Shown here piece after piece: positions 2,722 to 56,355 of a DNA stretch of 64,000 bases. The stretch lies in NCBI RefSeq assembly GCF_001457415.1, contig NZ_LN881723.1, positions 901,246-965,245 of the forward strand. Direction: 5' to 3'. Within the stretch, counting starts at the first letter, position 1. Every line of letters starts with the position of its first letter. A model generated the notes under the pieces. That model saw nothing but the letters and a program-made list of their open reading frames with translations. It did not search any database and had not been told where the DNA came from. The position numbers were made by a program, and so were the translations under genes. Origin of the DNA: Gorillibacterium timonense (lineage in GTDB: Bacteria > Bacillota > Bacilli > Paenibacillales > NBRC-103111).

Positions 2722-3888
2722 CTAGGAATTAACGGATTGCTTCCCCCGGGAGGAAGGCGGACACATCACGAAATGATGCTTTTTACCGGGAGCGTTCCAG
2801 TACCGTTCATTCCCCGGCAGATCGTCGAACCAAGAGGCGCCCGGAGGGCAATCCAGAATCATCAGCTTTCCGTAATGGCCTTCTCGGGACTGATGGTATT
2901 TCAAGTAGGCTTTTCCATTCTCGATGGCAAGAATTTCGATTTTCCCGGAAGAATGACTCATGACAAGCCGCACCCGCTTGCCGAGCCCTGAGGTTCGAGC
3001 CTTGGCTTCTTCAACCAAGCGATAGGCATTCTCCAAGGACAAAACGAATTCGCTGTTTCCGGCCACCGGACGATTGATGAAGAAGTAATATGGAGCAATC
3101 CCGCTCCAAGACAGGCGATCAAGCAGGTCGGCAAGCACGGCAGGATCGTCATTGATGCCTCGAAGAATCGGCGTCTGATTCATCACGACCGCGCCGGCAT
3201 CCAGGAGCGCACGGAACGCGGTTCGCGCTTCGGCGGTCAGTTCCCGGGGGTGGTTTACATGCGCCATGATATAGATGCGCTTCTCCGGCGTTGAATAATT
3301 GCGGATGGCTGTGAGCAGCTCTTCGTCCTCATAGATTCTCATCGGCTGAAAGACCGGCATTTTGGAGCCGAGCCGGATGATCTGAACGTGGGGGATCTCT
3401 CTTAGCTTGGCGAGGATCTCGATCAGCCGTTTCGTAGAAAGCATGAGGCTGTCACCTCCCGTGAGCAGCACGTTGCTGATCTCGGGATGGGCGGCGATGT
3501 AAGCCAGCCCCGGTTCCGGATTCGCTGAAGCTTCGTGCACCTCTTGCTGGAACAGCCTCTTGCGGAAGCAGTAGCGGCAATAAGCGGCGCAGACTTCGGA
3601 GACGACCAAGAGCGCAGTTGATCCGTATTTGTGCTGACAGCCGGGCACGACATAATTGGCTTCCTCGTCGGAGGCGTCCCAACGGCCGTATTCCTTGAGC
3701 TCCCCTTCACCGGGGATAACCAGCTTGCGGATCGGGTCGTGCGGATCGCTCCAATCGATCAGATTTGCATAATAATCGTTAATGCGAAAAGCGTAACGGT
3801 CTGTAACCTTCCTTAATTCTATCCGTTTCTCTTCCGGCAGAAAAGCTTCCAGTTTATCCAGATTGGTGAAATAAGTCGGTTTTGACAT
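2722..3888 (-). CDS. KamA-family radical SAM aminomutase
   Basis: A 388-residue radical SAM/PLP enzyme of the lysine 2,3-aminomutase (KamA) family, which moves an alpha-amino group to the beta carbon. The [4Fe-4S] motif C-x3-C-x2-C is at C100, C104 and C107 (CAAYCRYCF). LLTGGDSLM (about 141-150) is the glycine-rich SAM-binding segment, and the lysine of GLGK (about K304) aligns with the PLP lysine of KamA. It is somewhat shorter than clostridial KamA (about 416). By eye, the Asp pair that holds the substrate side-chain amine in lysine enzymes is absent: the first position is Arg273 in INRPVAG. This suggests a different substrate, perhaps an acidic amino acid. GGAGGA precedes the ATG. It is the first gene of an operon behind a c-di-AMP riboswitch. 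Confidence 0.88.
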   Translation of the reverse strand: MSKPTYFTNLDKLEAFLPEEKRIELRKVTDRYAFRINDYYANLIDWSDPHDPIRKLVIPGEGELKEYGRWDASDEEANYVVPGCQHKYGSTALLVVSEVCAAYCRYCFRKRLFQQEVHEASANPEPGLAYIAAHPEISNVLLTGGDSLMLSTKRLIEILAKLREIPHVQIIRLGSKMPVFQPMRIYEDEELLTAIRNYSTPEKRIYIMAHVNHPRELTAEARTAFRALLDAGAVVMNQTPILRGINDDPAVLADLLDRLSWSGIAPYYFFINRPVAGNSEFVLSLENAYRLVEEAKARTSGLGKRVRLVMSHSSGKIEILAIENGKAYLKYHQSREGHYGKLMILDCPPGASWFDDLPGNERYWNAPGKKHHFVMCPPSSRGKQSVNS

Positions 3889-4062: not shown

Positions 4063-4095
4063 GTATGCTCGTATCGTGAAGAAGAAAGCGGACCC

Positions 4096-4218
4096 ATCTT
4101 CTGCTGACGAGGTTAGCTGACGGGCTCGGGATGGATGGTTCCCTATGTCGCAGATGCGACGATTCGCCCCAAAGACTTGGTTCCCCCGCTCTCCGGTGCA
4201 AGACCGGAAATTAAGCGC
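4096..4218 (-). ncRNA. c-di-AMP (ydaO/yuaA) riboswitch aptamer
   Basis: On the - strand this segment carries the hallmark blocks of the ydaO/yuaA riboswitch in the right order: GCTTAAT, a GC hairpin, GCGGGGGAACC, TTGGGGCGAATC, ATAGGGAACC, CCCGAGCCCGTCAGC and TAACCTCGTCAGC. The class binds cyclic di-AMP and generally switches transcription off when the ligand is high; it is known upstream of potassium/osmolyte transporters and cell-wall hydrolases. Here it is followed by a terminator and then the KamA/SDR/ligase operon, an unusual cargo. A consensus promoter lies directly upstream. Confidence 0.93.
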
Positions 4219-4224
4219 TCTTCC

Positions 4225-4253
4225 ATTGTATTCGTTTTCATTCGATCTGGCAA
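4225..4253 (-). promoter_or_regulatory. Sigma-A promoter of the riboswitch/kamA-like operon
   Basis: TTGCCA (-35, 4248-4253) and TACAAT (-10, 4225-4230) are separated by exactly 17 bases on the - strand. The predicted start near 4218 is just before the riboswitch P1 strand. The operon therefore has its own promoter, independent of the upstream tRNA. Confidence 0.82.
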
Positions 4254-52075: not shown

Positions 52076-52741
52076 TCAGCTGCCTATCGCTTCCTCAAAG
52101 CGCTCGATCTGATCGTTCGTGCCGATCACGACCATGACATCGTCCGCATCGACGATGTCGTCTGCGCTCGGGGCGATGCTCACCTTCCCCGATTTGTTGA
52201 AGAGCGCCACGACGCTGCAGCCAAAGCGAGCGCGGGGATTGATCTGCCGCAATGTTTGGCCCGCAATTCGCACGGTCGCTCTCAGCTCCGCAATCGTGTA
52301 CTCCGAAGACAGCTCGATGTAATCGAGCAGGTTCGGCGTTCCGAGCTGATGGGCAACGCGGATGCCCATGTCGCGCTCCGGGAAGACGACCCGGTCGACT
52401 CCGATCTTATGCAGCACCTTTCCGTGAATCTTGGATACCGCTTTGGCGACGACGGTTTTCACGCCAAGGTCCTTCAGCAGAATGGCGGTCATGATGCTCG
52501 CCTGAACATCGCTGCCGATGGCAACGACACCGCAATCGAAATTGCGCAGGCCAAGCGATCTCATCGCTTCTTCATCGATGGATTCAGCGACGACCGCATG
52601 GGTCAGATAGGGGCTCATCTCGCTCACCCGCTCCTCATCCCGGTCGATGCCGAGCACCTCATACCCGAGCTGATAGAGCTCCCGAGCCAGACTCGCTCCG
52701 AACCTCCCAAGCCCGATGACCGCGAACTGATTTTTGCGCAT
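52076..52741 (-). CDS. ktrA: Ktr potassium uptake regulatory subunit (RCK)
   Basis: A 221-residue KtrA/KtrC-type protein, the same length as the Bacillus proteins. N-terminal RCK_N Rossmann fold with VIGLGRFGASLARELYQLG (about 8-26) binding ATP/ADP, then RCK_C (about 135-221; ELRATVRIAGQTLRQI), a domain that binds c-di-AMP in known members. The octameric ring gates the KtrB channel. ATG 52741 with GAGAGGAAG upstream is preferred to a 33-codon longer form. It follows the ktrB gene by 31 bases. Confidence 0.93.
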   Translation of the reverse strand: MRKNQFAVIGLGRFGASLARELYQLGYEVLGIDRDEERVSEMSPYLTHAVVAESIDEEAMRSLGLRNFDCGVVAIGSDVQASIMTAILLKDLGVKTVVAKAVSKIHGKVLHKIGVDRVVFPERDMGIRVAHQLGTPNLLDYIELSSEYTIAELRATVRIAGQTLRQINPRARFGCSVVALFNKSGKVSIAPSADDIVDADDVMVVIGTNDQIERFEEAIGS

Positions 52742-52772
52742 ACGACTCTTCCTCTCAATTCCTCTATTGAAG

Positions 52773-54149
52773 TTACCCGATCGTGATTTTGCCTTCCGGG
52801 TACCGGTATAATTCCTTTTCGGGTTTGGGCTGAAGCGCATAGGCGAGCGTCAGCGGGCCGAGGCGCCCGAGGAACATCATGAAAATGATCAGGATTCTCC
52901 CCACGAGGGTCAGTTGCGGGGTCAGACCCATGGTTAAGCCTACGGTTCCGAAACCGGACGTCACCTCAAACAGGATTCGCAGGAAATCGACATCCTCCGT
53001 CGTCGAGAGCACCATGGACACCAGAATGACCAGGATGAGAGCGAACAGCGTCAACGTGATCGCTTTGTTGATCCGATCCTTGGCCAGCCGGTTCCGGAAG
53101 TAAACGATGTCCCCCTTGCCTCGCAGCATGGCGATCATCGCTCCGATCAGAATGGAGAAGGTCGTCGTCTTGATCCCGCCGCCGGTTGAGCCGGGAGAGG
53201 CTCCGATGAACATCAGGATGATCGTGAAAAATTGCGAGGCCTGCCTCATCCCGGTGATGTCGATGGTGTTCGCTCCCGCCGTTCGCGGGGTAACCGAAGC
53301 GAAGAAGGATGCGAGCACCTTCCCACCGGGACTGAGCGGACCGAGCGTATGAGGATTGGTATATTCGAACACGTAGAAGACCAATGCGCCGATGCCGATC
53401 AGAAGACCCGTAGAAGCCAGCACAACCTTGCTGTGCAAGGACAGCTTCTTCTTAAAACGGTAGTCGTGCACATCCGATATGACGATAAAGCCGATGCCGC
53501 CGATGACGATCAGCAGCATAACGACGATATTCACGAGCGGGTCCTGCGCATAAGAGGTTAAGCTGGTGAAGGGACCCGTGAGAGGTCCGAACAGATCGAA
53601 GCCCGCGTTGTTAAACATAGATACCCCATGAAACAGGCCGAAAAACAGGGCATCCCCTAGAGGCATGTCATAGGCGAAGCGCAACGCGAGCAGCAGCGCC
53701 CCGGTTCCTTCCACGATCAAGGCATACAGCAGCACCTTGCGGATCAGCCGCACGATTCCTTCCATGCTGCTTTGATTGAGGGCCTCCTGCAAAATAAGCC
53801 GCTCTCTTAGCGAAATCCGCCGACGGAAAACCAGCATGATCAGCGTGGCCATCGTCATGAACCCGAGTCCGCCGATTTGCATGAGCAGCAGGATGATGAC
53901 CTTCCCCTGCAGGCTCCAGTGAATGCCCGTATCCACGACGACGAGCCCGGTCACGCAAGTTGCCGATGTTGATGTAAAAAGAGCGTCGACGAACCGGGTC
54001 GGCTCGCCTGAAGCGGAGGAGGAAGGCAGCATCAACAGACCCGCTCCGAGCAGAATGATCAAAGCAAAGCCGATGACGAGAATTTGCGGGGGTGTCAGAC
54101 GAATGAACAAGCGGGCCGATACCCGCTCTCTTCTGCTTCCAATGCTCAA
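52773..54149 (-). CDS. ktrB: Ktr/Trk potassium uptake membrane subunit
   Basis: A 458-residue KtrB/TrkH-type potassium translocator with four pseudo-repeats of helix-pore-helix; selectivity segments include SATCVTGL, FNNAGFDL and TPRTAGANT, and GSTGGGIKTTT is the intramembrane gate-loop region. The start is uncertain: TTG 54149 has AGGTGG six bases upstream and gives a length near KtrB/KtrD (445-449); ATG 54173 lacks a binding site. The gene has its own promoter at 54309-54338 and a terminator within the leader, so expression is probably attenuated. Confidence 0.92.
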   Translation of the reverse strand: MSIGSRRERVSARLFIRLTPPQILVIGFALIILLGAGLLMLPSSSASGEPTRFVDALFTSTSATCVTGLVVVDTGIHWSLQGKVIILLLMQIGGLGFMTMATLIMLVFRRRISLRERLILQEALNQSSMEGIVRLIRKVLLYALIVEGTGALLLALRFAYDMPLGDALFFGLFHGVSMFNNAGFDLFGPLTGPFTSLTSYAQDPLVNIVVMLLIVIGGIGFIVISDVHDYRFKKKLSLHSKVVLASTGLLIGIGALVFYVFEYTNPHTLGPLSPGGKVLASFFASVTPRTAGANTIDITGMRQASQFFTIILMFIGASPGSTGGGIKTTTFSILIGAMIAMLRGKGDIVYFRNRLAKDRINKAITLTLFALILVILVSMVLSTTEDVDFLRILFEVTSGFGTVGLTMGLTPQLTLVGRILIIFMMFLGRLGPLTLAYALQPKPEKELYRYPEGKITIG

Positions 54150-54207
54150 AGCTCTACCACCTGCTCCTTCCATTATTCCGCGTTCACGGCGACCCTTCCA
54201 TATCCGC

Positions 54208-54236
54208 AAAAAAAAGGCACGGGAGCTCCCAATGCC
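54208..54236 (-). terminator. Intrinsic terminator inside the ktrB leader
   Basis: GGCATTGGGAG pairs with CTCCCGTGCC, followed by eight T on the - strand. The only gene upstream on this strand side is divergent, so nothing else needs a terminator here: it sits between the ktrB promoter (54309-54338) and start codon. Upstream in the leader are an ATCTAT/ATAGAT inverted repeat (54256-54274) and TATGC, which can pair with the GCATT of the terminator stem, hinting at an alternative fold. No known riboswitch class is recognised. Confidence 0.65.
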
Positions 54237-54308
54237 TGCGGTGCATACCTGATCAATCTATGAACTCGATAGATGAGCTTGAACGATGAAATTCAATCAA
54301 TGCTTTCG

Positions 54309-54338
54309 ATTATAGCTTCCTCTAAGGCTGCATGACAA
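54309..54338 (-). promoter_or_regulatory. Sigma-A promoter of the ktr genes
   Basis: TTGTCA (54333-54338) and TATAAT (54309-54314) with 18-base spacing on the - strand. The predicted start near 54302 gives a leader of about 150 bases. The rest of the gap to the CPBP gene (54340-54645) shows no other clear element on the - strand. Confidence 0.7.
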
Positions 54339-54645
54339 AGCTGGATTTCCTCCATTTTCAGGCGATTGATCTTGGTTTAAGGCATTTTGGAATGTCTAGG
54401 GAGATCACGCCGATCCTCGGGCGTTATTTTTGACGAAGGCCCTTGTTTTCATCCTTTTTCCCCCAAAAAGGTGTCTTCAAACGGGGTGAAACGCGAAGCC
54501 ATGCTCCAACTTTGCCTCAACGGTTTGGGAAGACGTCGGCTTCTCGGTTGCTGTCTCTGAAGGGAACATGGACTCCACGGATTACCTGCGGTTATAATAA
54601 ATGGGAAGGAATTCAGGCTGTACGATGATTGAAGGAGGAACCGTA

Positions 54646-56355
54646 TTGTTCTCAATTCGCTTTAACCGCAATCTCCTGATTATGGCGCTGATCGGCGTCG
54701 CCCTTTATTTATCGGTCGTTGCCTGGTACGGAATCCGCGGGGAGACCAACCCCGACACGCTCTCTTCCGTGCCTCCCGTTACCAAGGAAATGGCCGAGAG
54801 CACGGCCTTGGACTGGTTCCGGAACGAAACCGGTACTACCGCCGAAATCGAGGGAACCGTCTACATCACGGACAAACAGGTTCAGGGCTATTTGGAAAAA
54901 AACGATCTCACCAAAGAGTATGAGAAAACGCTCGAAGCCGTGGTTCCGCTCGATTACTGGCGGGTCGCTTTAAAGGCTGATAATGAAAGCCGGATCTACG
55001 TGCGGGTGGGCTTGGACGAAGCCAAGGTGTACGGGTTCCAAACCCCAAAGCCGCGTTCCGACAATGCCGTCTCGATCAAAATTAATGACGCGGACGAAGC
55101 GGTCAGCATGTTCGGGTATTCACGCGCTGACTTTGAAATCGGACCCCCGCCCTCGGGTAAAGGGTATTCGATAGACACAGCCCCTATGTTCCGGTTTACC
55201 AGCAAGAGCCAGCATATTGGCGAAGCCAAGCTCGTTATCGACATCAGCAGCAATGACAAAGGACTCACGGAAATCCTGCCTTCTCTTGAGCCCCCGGCCG
55301 ACTTCATCAGCTGGATGAATAAGCAGGATACCGGAGCTGGACTCTACAGTATCCTCTACATAGCAGGCGCTCTCATCTTCGGGATCGTCGGTCTTATTCT
55401 CATCATCCTCAAGCGCAAGCAATCCCGGTTCAGCCGCGGCATTCTGTTCAGCCTCGTCTTCTTGTCGGCGATCGGTATTTATACCTATAACAGCCTGCCG
55501 GCTCAGTTGGCGAGCGTCGAACCCAGCCAGCTCGGAATCATGAGCAGCTCCAATTTCCTATTCATCACCAGCATGATCATCTATGTCCTGCTGGCGGTAT
55601 CCTTGTATTTCAATGCTGTCTCCGGAGATGTGCTCTGGCGGGAAAGAGGCTGGAATCCTTGGCCACGCTGGAAGGATGCGAACTTCGGCAACCATGTCTA
55701 TGCGAGCATGGGTAGAGGTTATCTCCTCTGCATCTTCGTCATGGGCGTCCAACAGGTGCTGTTCCTGTTCGCGTACAATGTCTTTGATACCTTCTCCGTG
55801 AACGATCCGTCTCAATCGATGGAGAATCTCTACTGGCCTTGGCTGTTTCCCACCTTGGCCTGGTATGCCGGAATCGGCGAGGAAATCGTGTTCCGCCTCT
55901 TCGGCATCTCGCTGTTCCGCAAGATGCTGCCCGAAGGCCGCAGCCGCGTCAGCCAGAACATCATCCGCTTTCTCTCTGTACTGCTTCCCGCTCTGATCTG
56001 GGCGGCGGGCCATGCGGCGTACGCGTTCTATCCCAACTATACCCGCCTGTTTGAAGTCGCGGCGCTCGGACTCATCTTCGGCTTCGTGTTCCTGCGCTAC
56101 GGTCTCTACACCGCGATCTTCACCCATGTCTCGATGGACATCATTCTCATGAGCCTGTCGTACATGGTGGACGAGAAAACGATCGGCGCCACTCTGCTCG
56201 GCATCTTCTACATGGCGACTCCATTTCTCGTCGCCGCGATTATTCTGTTCCTTCACCGGACCTTCCGGAAGACTCCAGTTGATCCGCCAGCTCAGCCGCT
56301 TCCAAATCCAAATCTATATCCATATCCGAATCCGGGTCCGGTACAGAATCCGTAA
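54646..56355 (+). CDS. CPBP-family intramembrane metalloprotease
   Basis: A 569-residue membrane protein. One N-terminal helix (about 8-28), a 220-residue extracellular domain, then eight or so helices carrying the CPBP motifs: EEIVFRLFG (paired Glu), the His of [10 protein letters not shown] and the FTHVSMD segment. CPBP (Abi/Rce1) proteases cut in the membrane or act in protein maturation. The start is TTG with AGGAGG seven bases upstream; the longer frame from 54601 has no binding site. The last 115 bases, coding a Pro/Asn/Tyr-rich tail, overlap the 3' end of uvrC in antisense. Confidence 0.9.

Follow-up and report, generated by a model that had tools for sequence, protein, structure and literature searches.

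c-di-AMP binds proteins of the KtrA/TrkA type. It also acts on RNA leaders of potassium importers: in the available part of one account, binding of c-di-AMP to the kdpFABC riboswitch of Bacillus thuringiensis promotes termination, while low potassium leads to read-through, and c-di-AMP riboswitches are also said to control kimA and ktrAB in the B. subtilis and B. cereus groups (PMC6488665). The Na+-I riboswitch is sometimes found in tandem with c-di-AMP riboswitches, according to the accessible portion of its description (PMC9337991). Here we analyse the leader of a ktrB gene in Gorillibacterium timonense, located in a stretch of 64,000 nucleotides that we refer to as the window. The leader is probably a former c-di-AMP (ydaO) riboswitch of ktrB that has lost its aptamer and an antiterminator-like arm, has kept its promoter and terminator, and would now serve as a fixed attenuator.

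Anatomy of the ktrB leader

The features of the locus are as follows, with coordinates in the window.

52076-52840, minus strand: ktrA-like TrkA-domain regulator, longest frame, overlapping the end of ktrB (PF02254, PF02080)
52773-54149, minus strand: ktrB, TrkH/KtrB potassium transporter subunit (PF02386, TIGR00933, synteny; start by eye)
54208-54236, minus strand: intrinsic terminator GGCATTGGGAGCTCCCGTGCC-T8 (match to model R1, 23.8 bits)
54237-54302, minus strand: leader between the presumed transcription start and the terminator, probably an eroded c-di-AMP aptamer region
54253-54300, minus strand: 15-codon TTG frame ending in TGA and encoding LIEFHRSSSSIEFID, judged to be a chance frame
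54309-54338, minus strand: promoter TTGTCA-18-TATAAT (scan, 11 of 12 matches; GCTATAATCGAAA in common with leader L120)
54601-56355, plus strand: Rce1-like (CPBP) gene of a protease family, divergently oriented and with conserved synteny in relatives (PF02517)

The original prediction, made from the sequence alone, described an attenuator-like leader between ktrB and a divergent gene, and both neighbours hold. The downstream gene belongs to the TrkH/KtrB family by PF02386 and TIGR00933, with a probable start at the TTG at 54149, preceded by AGGTGG as judged by eye, and the upstream gene is the Rce1-like gene that begins at 54601. The genome also contains a second ktrB (C5, locus L004), whose fetched flanks lack the c-di-AMP riboswitch family RF00379.

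The anatomy of an attenuator is likewise present, with a promoter, some 95 nt of leader and a hairpin followed by T8. The promoter consists of TTGTCA (54338-54333), a spacer of 18 bases and TATAAT (54314-54309) on the minus strand. Since 4 kb contained two promoter-like sites compared with 1.8 expected from shuffles, the promoter does not exceed chance when taken by itself. A family-wide profile of 68 sequences did not match the promoter block of the window, and the case for its homology thus comes from pairwise comparison with near relatives. Counted from the presumed start at approximately 54302, the hairpin is reached after about 66 nt and the T run ends after about 95 nt, which makes the predicted leader of about 90 bases a fair estimate.

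The strong terminator with eight T that had been noted before ktrB was recovered as a hairpin of -10.3 kcal/mol, compared with a shuffle mean of -5.4 (sd 2.1), and 55 of 2000 shuffles were as stable. The T8 run ends 58 bases ahead of the likely ktrB start, and the leader thereby has both elements of an intrinsic terminator, a stable hairpin and a subsequent U-run. Runs of at least seven T occur 15 times on the two strands of the window, and five of these, including the ktrB terminator, are preceded by a hairpin of at least that stability class (-9 or better). A simple terminator scan did not list the ktrB hairpin, probably because of a bulge in its stem.

The remainder of the leader is less distinctive. 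For the stretch 54173-54302 (130 nt), folding is at the level of shuffles (z -0.37), 65 of 200 of which did equally well. A search of the family genomes, in which 26 of 104 genomes matched and at most six candidates were scored per genome, returned no match to the leader, and all matches outside the window's own genome fell in the coding part of ktrB. RF00379 did not match the leader even at E 10, let alone at its gathering score, and in the Rfam search that had been suggested as a check none of 4227 families reached its gathering score in the leader, where eight chance-level matches lay below it. A new riboswitch class is disfavoured by the missing Rfam match, the shuffle-like folding and the unmatched leader.

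The 15-codon TTG frame and the competing pairing that had been pointed out in the leader both exist, but neither is convincing as a regulatory element. Frames of this length or longer occur in 31% of shuffled leaders, and no Shine-Dalgarno sequence was seen by eye in front of the frame. A leader-peptide attenuator was rejected on these two observations and on the unmatched leader in the family genomes. The fold with the competing pairing AAGCUC:GAGCU is less favourable than that of the terminator by about 9.6 kcal/mol, which makes the pairing weak as a switch. With a weak pairing, an ordinary frame and an unmatched leader, the suggestion of a new cis-regulator of potassium uptake finds no support. 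The same energy difference, the shuffle-like folding and the lack of a leader match among the few candidates scored per genome also speak against the idea that the terminator was kept under a new signal, such as an RNA-binding protein, another ligand or the AAGCUC:GAGCU pairing itself, a possibility to which we return below.

Orthologous leaders in Paenibacillaceae

KtrB relatives were collected as the best 80 of 179 from named genomes, plus those of 104 family genomes, 100 of which contained a KtrB match at E 1e-100; a plasmid search with KtrB (178 records) was left aside. RF00379 is present in most of their leaders, usually with a terminator behind it that reads GGCATTGG-N4-CCAGTGYC-T6+; in L016, L035, L152 and L199 the aptamer motif is present and the common terminator absent by pattern. 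All six close relatives that were scanned have RF00379 before ktrB (77.6-98.6 bits). For five of these (L198 left out), synteny with the window was checked, and GGCATTGG-like terminators are located downstream of RF00379. The gene order trx-uvrC-CPBP(divergent)-ktrB of the window is shared by G023, G003, G021 and G103 (L257, L259, L260, L261), and also by G022 (L258), in which the ktrB match in one piece comprises only 217 residues. RF00379 is present in the ktrB leaders of all five syntenic genomes (L120, L121, L122, L125 and L226). The short match in G022 (L226/L258) may reflect a frameshift or an assembly error, and the riboswitch before it is intact.

To compare the terminators, we used R1, a model of the 3' end of the riboswitch leaders in 44 relatives from which the window was excluded; 44 of 46 sequences were used, with L192 and L195 left out for their long insertions. 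With filters off, the best match of R1 in the window was at 54236-54208 (E 0.00035), and the next best scored 8.9 bits. In a search of the whole genome (5.26 Mb) that scored 150 of 1500 candidates, the window terminator again came first (E 0.028), followed by a match of 16.9 bits. The match covers the terminator hairpin and the T run only (model positions 29-56). In the 44 relatives, the terminator helix covaries when cells are counted, with seven changed on both sides and none of 500 shuffles having as many, while the count by pairs was two, a number reached by 34 of 500 shuffles. By the R1 matches, the terminator of the window leader is homologous to the one in the expression platform of the orthologous RF00379 loci. 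A lack of hairpin conservation in relatives had been named as refuting the original prediction; the hairpin is conserved and the prediction is not refuted on this point, but the conservation is that of a known riboswitch.

The significant similarity is limited to the terminator and does not extend by identity scoring to the rest of the leader, as would be expected if an unrelated new leader had acquired a similar terminator by convergence. However, the best R1 match among the candidates scored in the genome sits exactly at the orthologous place, which makes convergence very unlikely.

The window leader also differs from those of its relatives upstream of the terminator. In the 44 relatives, a CAGGAACC arm located directly after the aptamer hardly varies and is able to pair with the strands of the terminator (alignment A1, columns 16-25 with 45-56). 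In the ktrB riboswitch of Paenibacillus it is likely to serve as the antiterminator arm, as indicated more by conservation than by covariation, since 93.9% of the cells in the antiterminator columns were paired in the 44 relatives compared with 93.0% in shuffles. The arm reads CAGGTATGCACC in the window and is thereby broken.

The middle of the leader is only about 66 nt long in the window, compared with about 150 nt in L120. It contains a possible shred of the aptamer, GTTCAAGCTCATCTATCGAGTTCATAGATTGA, at a place collinear with ACCCGAATCCGTCAGCTAACCTCGTAGGCTGA of L120. Compared with the 3' segment of the L120 aptamer over 32 columns, 14 are identical, 16 are transitions and two are transversions. 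With a transition-friendly scoring, which was picked after the alignment had been seen, 3, 6 and 10 of 2000 shuffles were as good for the templates L120, L121 and L009. Under three other scorings, 36 to 1451 of 2000 shuffles were as good, and the best placement was sometimes elsewhere. An aptamer remnant in the middle of the leader is therefore suggestive only.

The leader was originally described as belonging to no recognised type and unlike ydaO, which is true of the window sequence alone, but the relatives indicate an expression platform derived from ydaO. A c-di-AMP (ydaO) riboswitch before the orthologous ktrB of related Paenibacillaceae would represent the ancestral state. The window would since have lost the antiterminator-like arm and the greater part, if not the whole, of the aptamer, with the promoter and the intrinsic terminator staying in place. 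Since the aptamer and the antiterminator-like arm are missing, the terminator should form nearly always, and RNA polymerase starting at the leader promoter would usually stop there. The ktrAB genes would then be expressed by read-through at a low and fixed level, with no response to c-di-AMP at the RNA level, and c-di-AMP could still exert control by binding to the KtrA protein. In ensemble folding, the terminator pairs of the window have a probability of 1.00, but this does not discriminate a fixed brake from a working switch, because of 14 intact riboswitch leaders that were likewise folded without ligand, 11 also had terminator pairs with probabilities of at least 0.95. That the brake is probably fixed is what we infer from the missing sensor, and is not a computed result.

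Seven other RF00379 elements over the cut-off and two DAC-domain (c-di-AMP cyclase) genes were identified in the genome of the window, and c-di-AMP signalling is predicted from this gene content to persist. An intact c-di-AMP riboswitch (80.8 bits) is located in the window itself at 4089-4227 on the minus strand, and downstream of it is a radical-SAM gene (2722-3888) that by eye resembles lysine 2,3-aminomutase.

Loss of aptamers and terminators at ktrB loci

The KtrB tree contained 164 tips, obtained from 191 loci by removing 27 second copies of the same protein and L226, which was too short, and by adding the window. For the counts, L003 (the window itself) and 18 lower-scoring second-copy KtrB tips were also left out, leaving 145 tips. 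The aptamer motif was present in 93 of these, half an aptamer in one (L007) and the terminator alone in two (the window and L208), while 49 had neither. Of the 93 tips with an intact motif, 38 were scanned with Rfam and 37 matched, the exception being L193 at a contig edge. All 49 tips with neither were scanned, in their own or a same-protein copy, and had no RF00379 at the gathering score in the leader. Parsimony gave 16 changes for the loss of the aptamer on one rough tree. Because the 18 second copies formed no single clade, this number is to be read as approximate, and other copies may still be present in a few cases among the 145 tips.

A search with R1 at default filters against 53 loci (the 49 with neither, L208, L145, L016 and L004) gave clear matches in L145 and L208 and marginal ones in L207 (E 0.12) and L080 (E 0.93). 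Retention of the terminator after loss of the aptamer is thus unusual, and the terminator usually goes too. In L007/L145, the c-di-AMP aptamer is of half length (86 nt, 46.5 bits) and the terminator is kept (R1, 46.3 bits), a state that appears to be an intermediate of riboswitch decay.

The second terminator-only locus, L208 in G001 (R1, 32.9 bits), resembles the window in that the aptamer is gone, a TATAAT box, ATCAATTGAATA and the terminator are kept, and trx and uvrC are located upstream. It differs in belonging to a distant, weakly placed lineage with a genome of 2.4 Mb, in showing no CPBP match in a stretch of 9.5 kb, and in having a clearer aptamer-like shred, AGCTAACTTCGAAAGCT, which is identical at 14 of 17 positions (11 and 10 of 1000 shuffles as good for two templates, by identity). 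A tree of 35 sequences places the window with L120, L030, L016, L005 and L011 in one group of six (bootstrap 91). Of these, L005 and L011 are without a riboswitch, which speaks against the former-riboswitch reading, and no UvrC or CPBP match was found in the 3 kb flanks of L016, L005 and L011. Since L208, whose own placement is weak, falls apart from the window in this tree, two separate origins of the terminator-only state are probable. As a separate observation, G001 has two DAC-domain genes and only one RF00379 element was found in it, compared with six to nine in three relatives, as expected if c-di-AMP riboswitches had been lost throughout as the genome was reduced.

The kept terminator may reflect either a recent loss of the aptamer or a retained function. 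That it is a dead relic with no selected role, ktrAB being transcribed by simple read-through or from another promoter, would agree with the frequent loss of the aptamer at ktrB loci and with the terminator usually being lost along with it. However, the hairpin and T8 are intact in the window though the aptamer is past recognition, and the promoter scan listed no other site between the terminator and ktrB, so we regard a relic as unlikely. The re-purposing of the terminator under a new signal, introduced above, draws on an intact terminator in the window, compared with no clear one at 49 other ktrB loci without an aptamer, on its retention in two distant lineages (the window and L208), and on the open reading frame of ktrB; weighed against the poor competing fold and the unremarkable leader, it is improbable. 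We put forward as a speculative extension of the former-riboswitch reading that on at least two occasions in Paenibacillaceae (in the lineage of the window and in G001) aptamer loss may have turned a riboswitch into an attenuator of potassium uptake that has no sensor but is under selection, possibly responding to a new signal.

Reduction is also seen in a clade of 26 Paenibacillus tips (L017, L020, L021, L022, L029, L031, L037, L039 and their relatives) with shrunken ktrB leaders, 25 of which were aligned, six of them partially. These leaders keep the promoter, remains of the terminator and, in most cases, a remnant of the 5' part of the aptamer similar to GAATTTC...AACGGGGAACC, the possible role of which is worth asking about. 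In the available parts of the literature on c-di-AMP riboswitches, ktrAB and riboswitch loss, such decay of ktrB leaders is not described.

Comparison with described riboswitches

An apparently new attenuator can in this way be explained without invoking a new regulator. The ktrB loci would also provide a natural series of riboswitch death, from aptamer present to half-deleted, terminator alone and neither, and they make it a testable question whether ktrAB transcription has been uncoupled from c-di-AMP in a genome where seven other riboswitches remain.

Among the described systems, the Na+-I riboswitch (DUF1646 motif), as far as its accessible description goes, is similar to the window in being an ion-related leader with a terminator (PMC9337991), and differs in that the window leader matches no Rfam family. 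The kdpFABC leader of B. thuringiensis, in the available part of its account, likewise places a potassium importer behind an intrinsic terminator, but it has an aptamer and responds to c-di-AMP, whereas the window leader has lost the aptamer (PMC6488665). The ydaO/yuaA riboswitch (RF00379) before ktrB in Paenibacillaceae has the same locus, synteny, terminator and U-run as the window leader and a similar promoter. The window differs from it in having no aptamer detected at E 10 and a broken antiterminator-like arm. Because it has no RF00379 match, the window leader falls outside the c-di-AMP riboswitches, from one of which it most likely descends.
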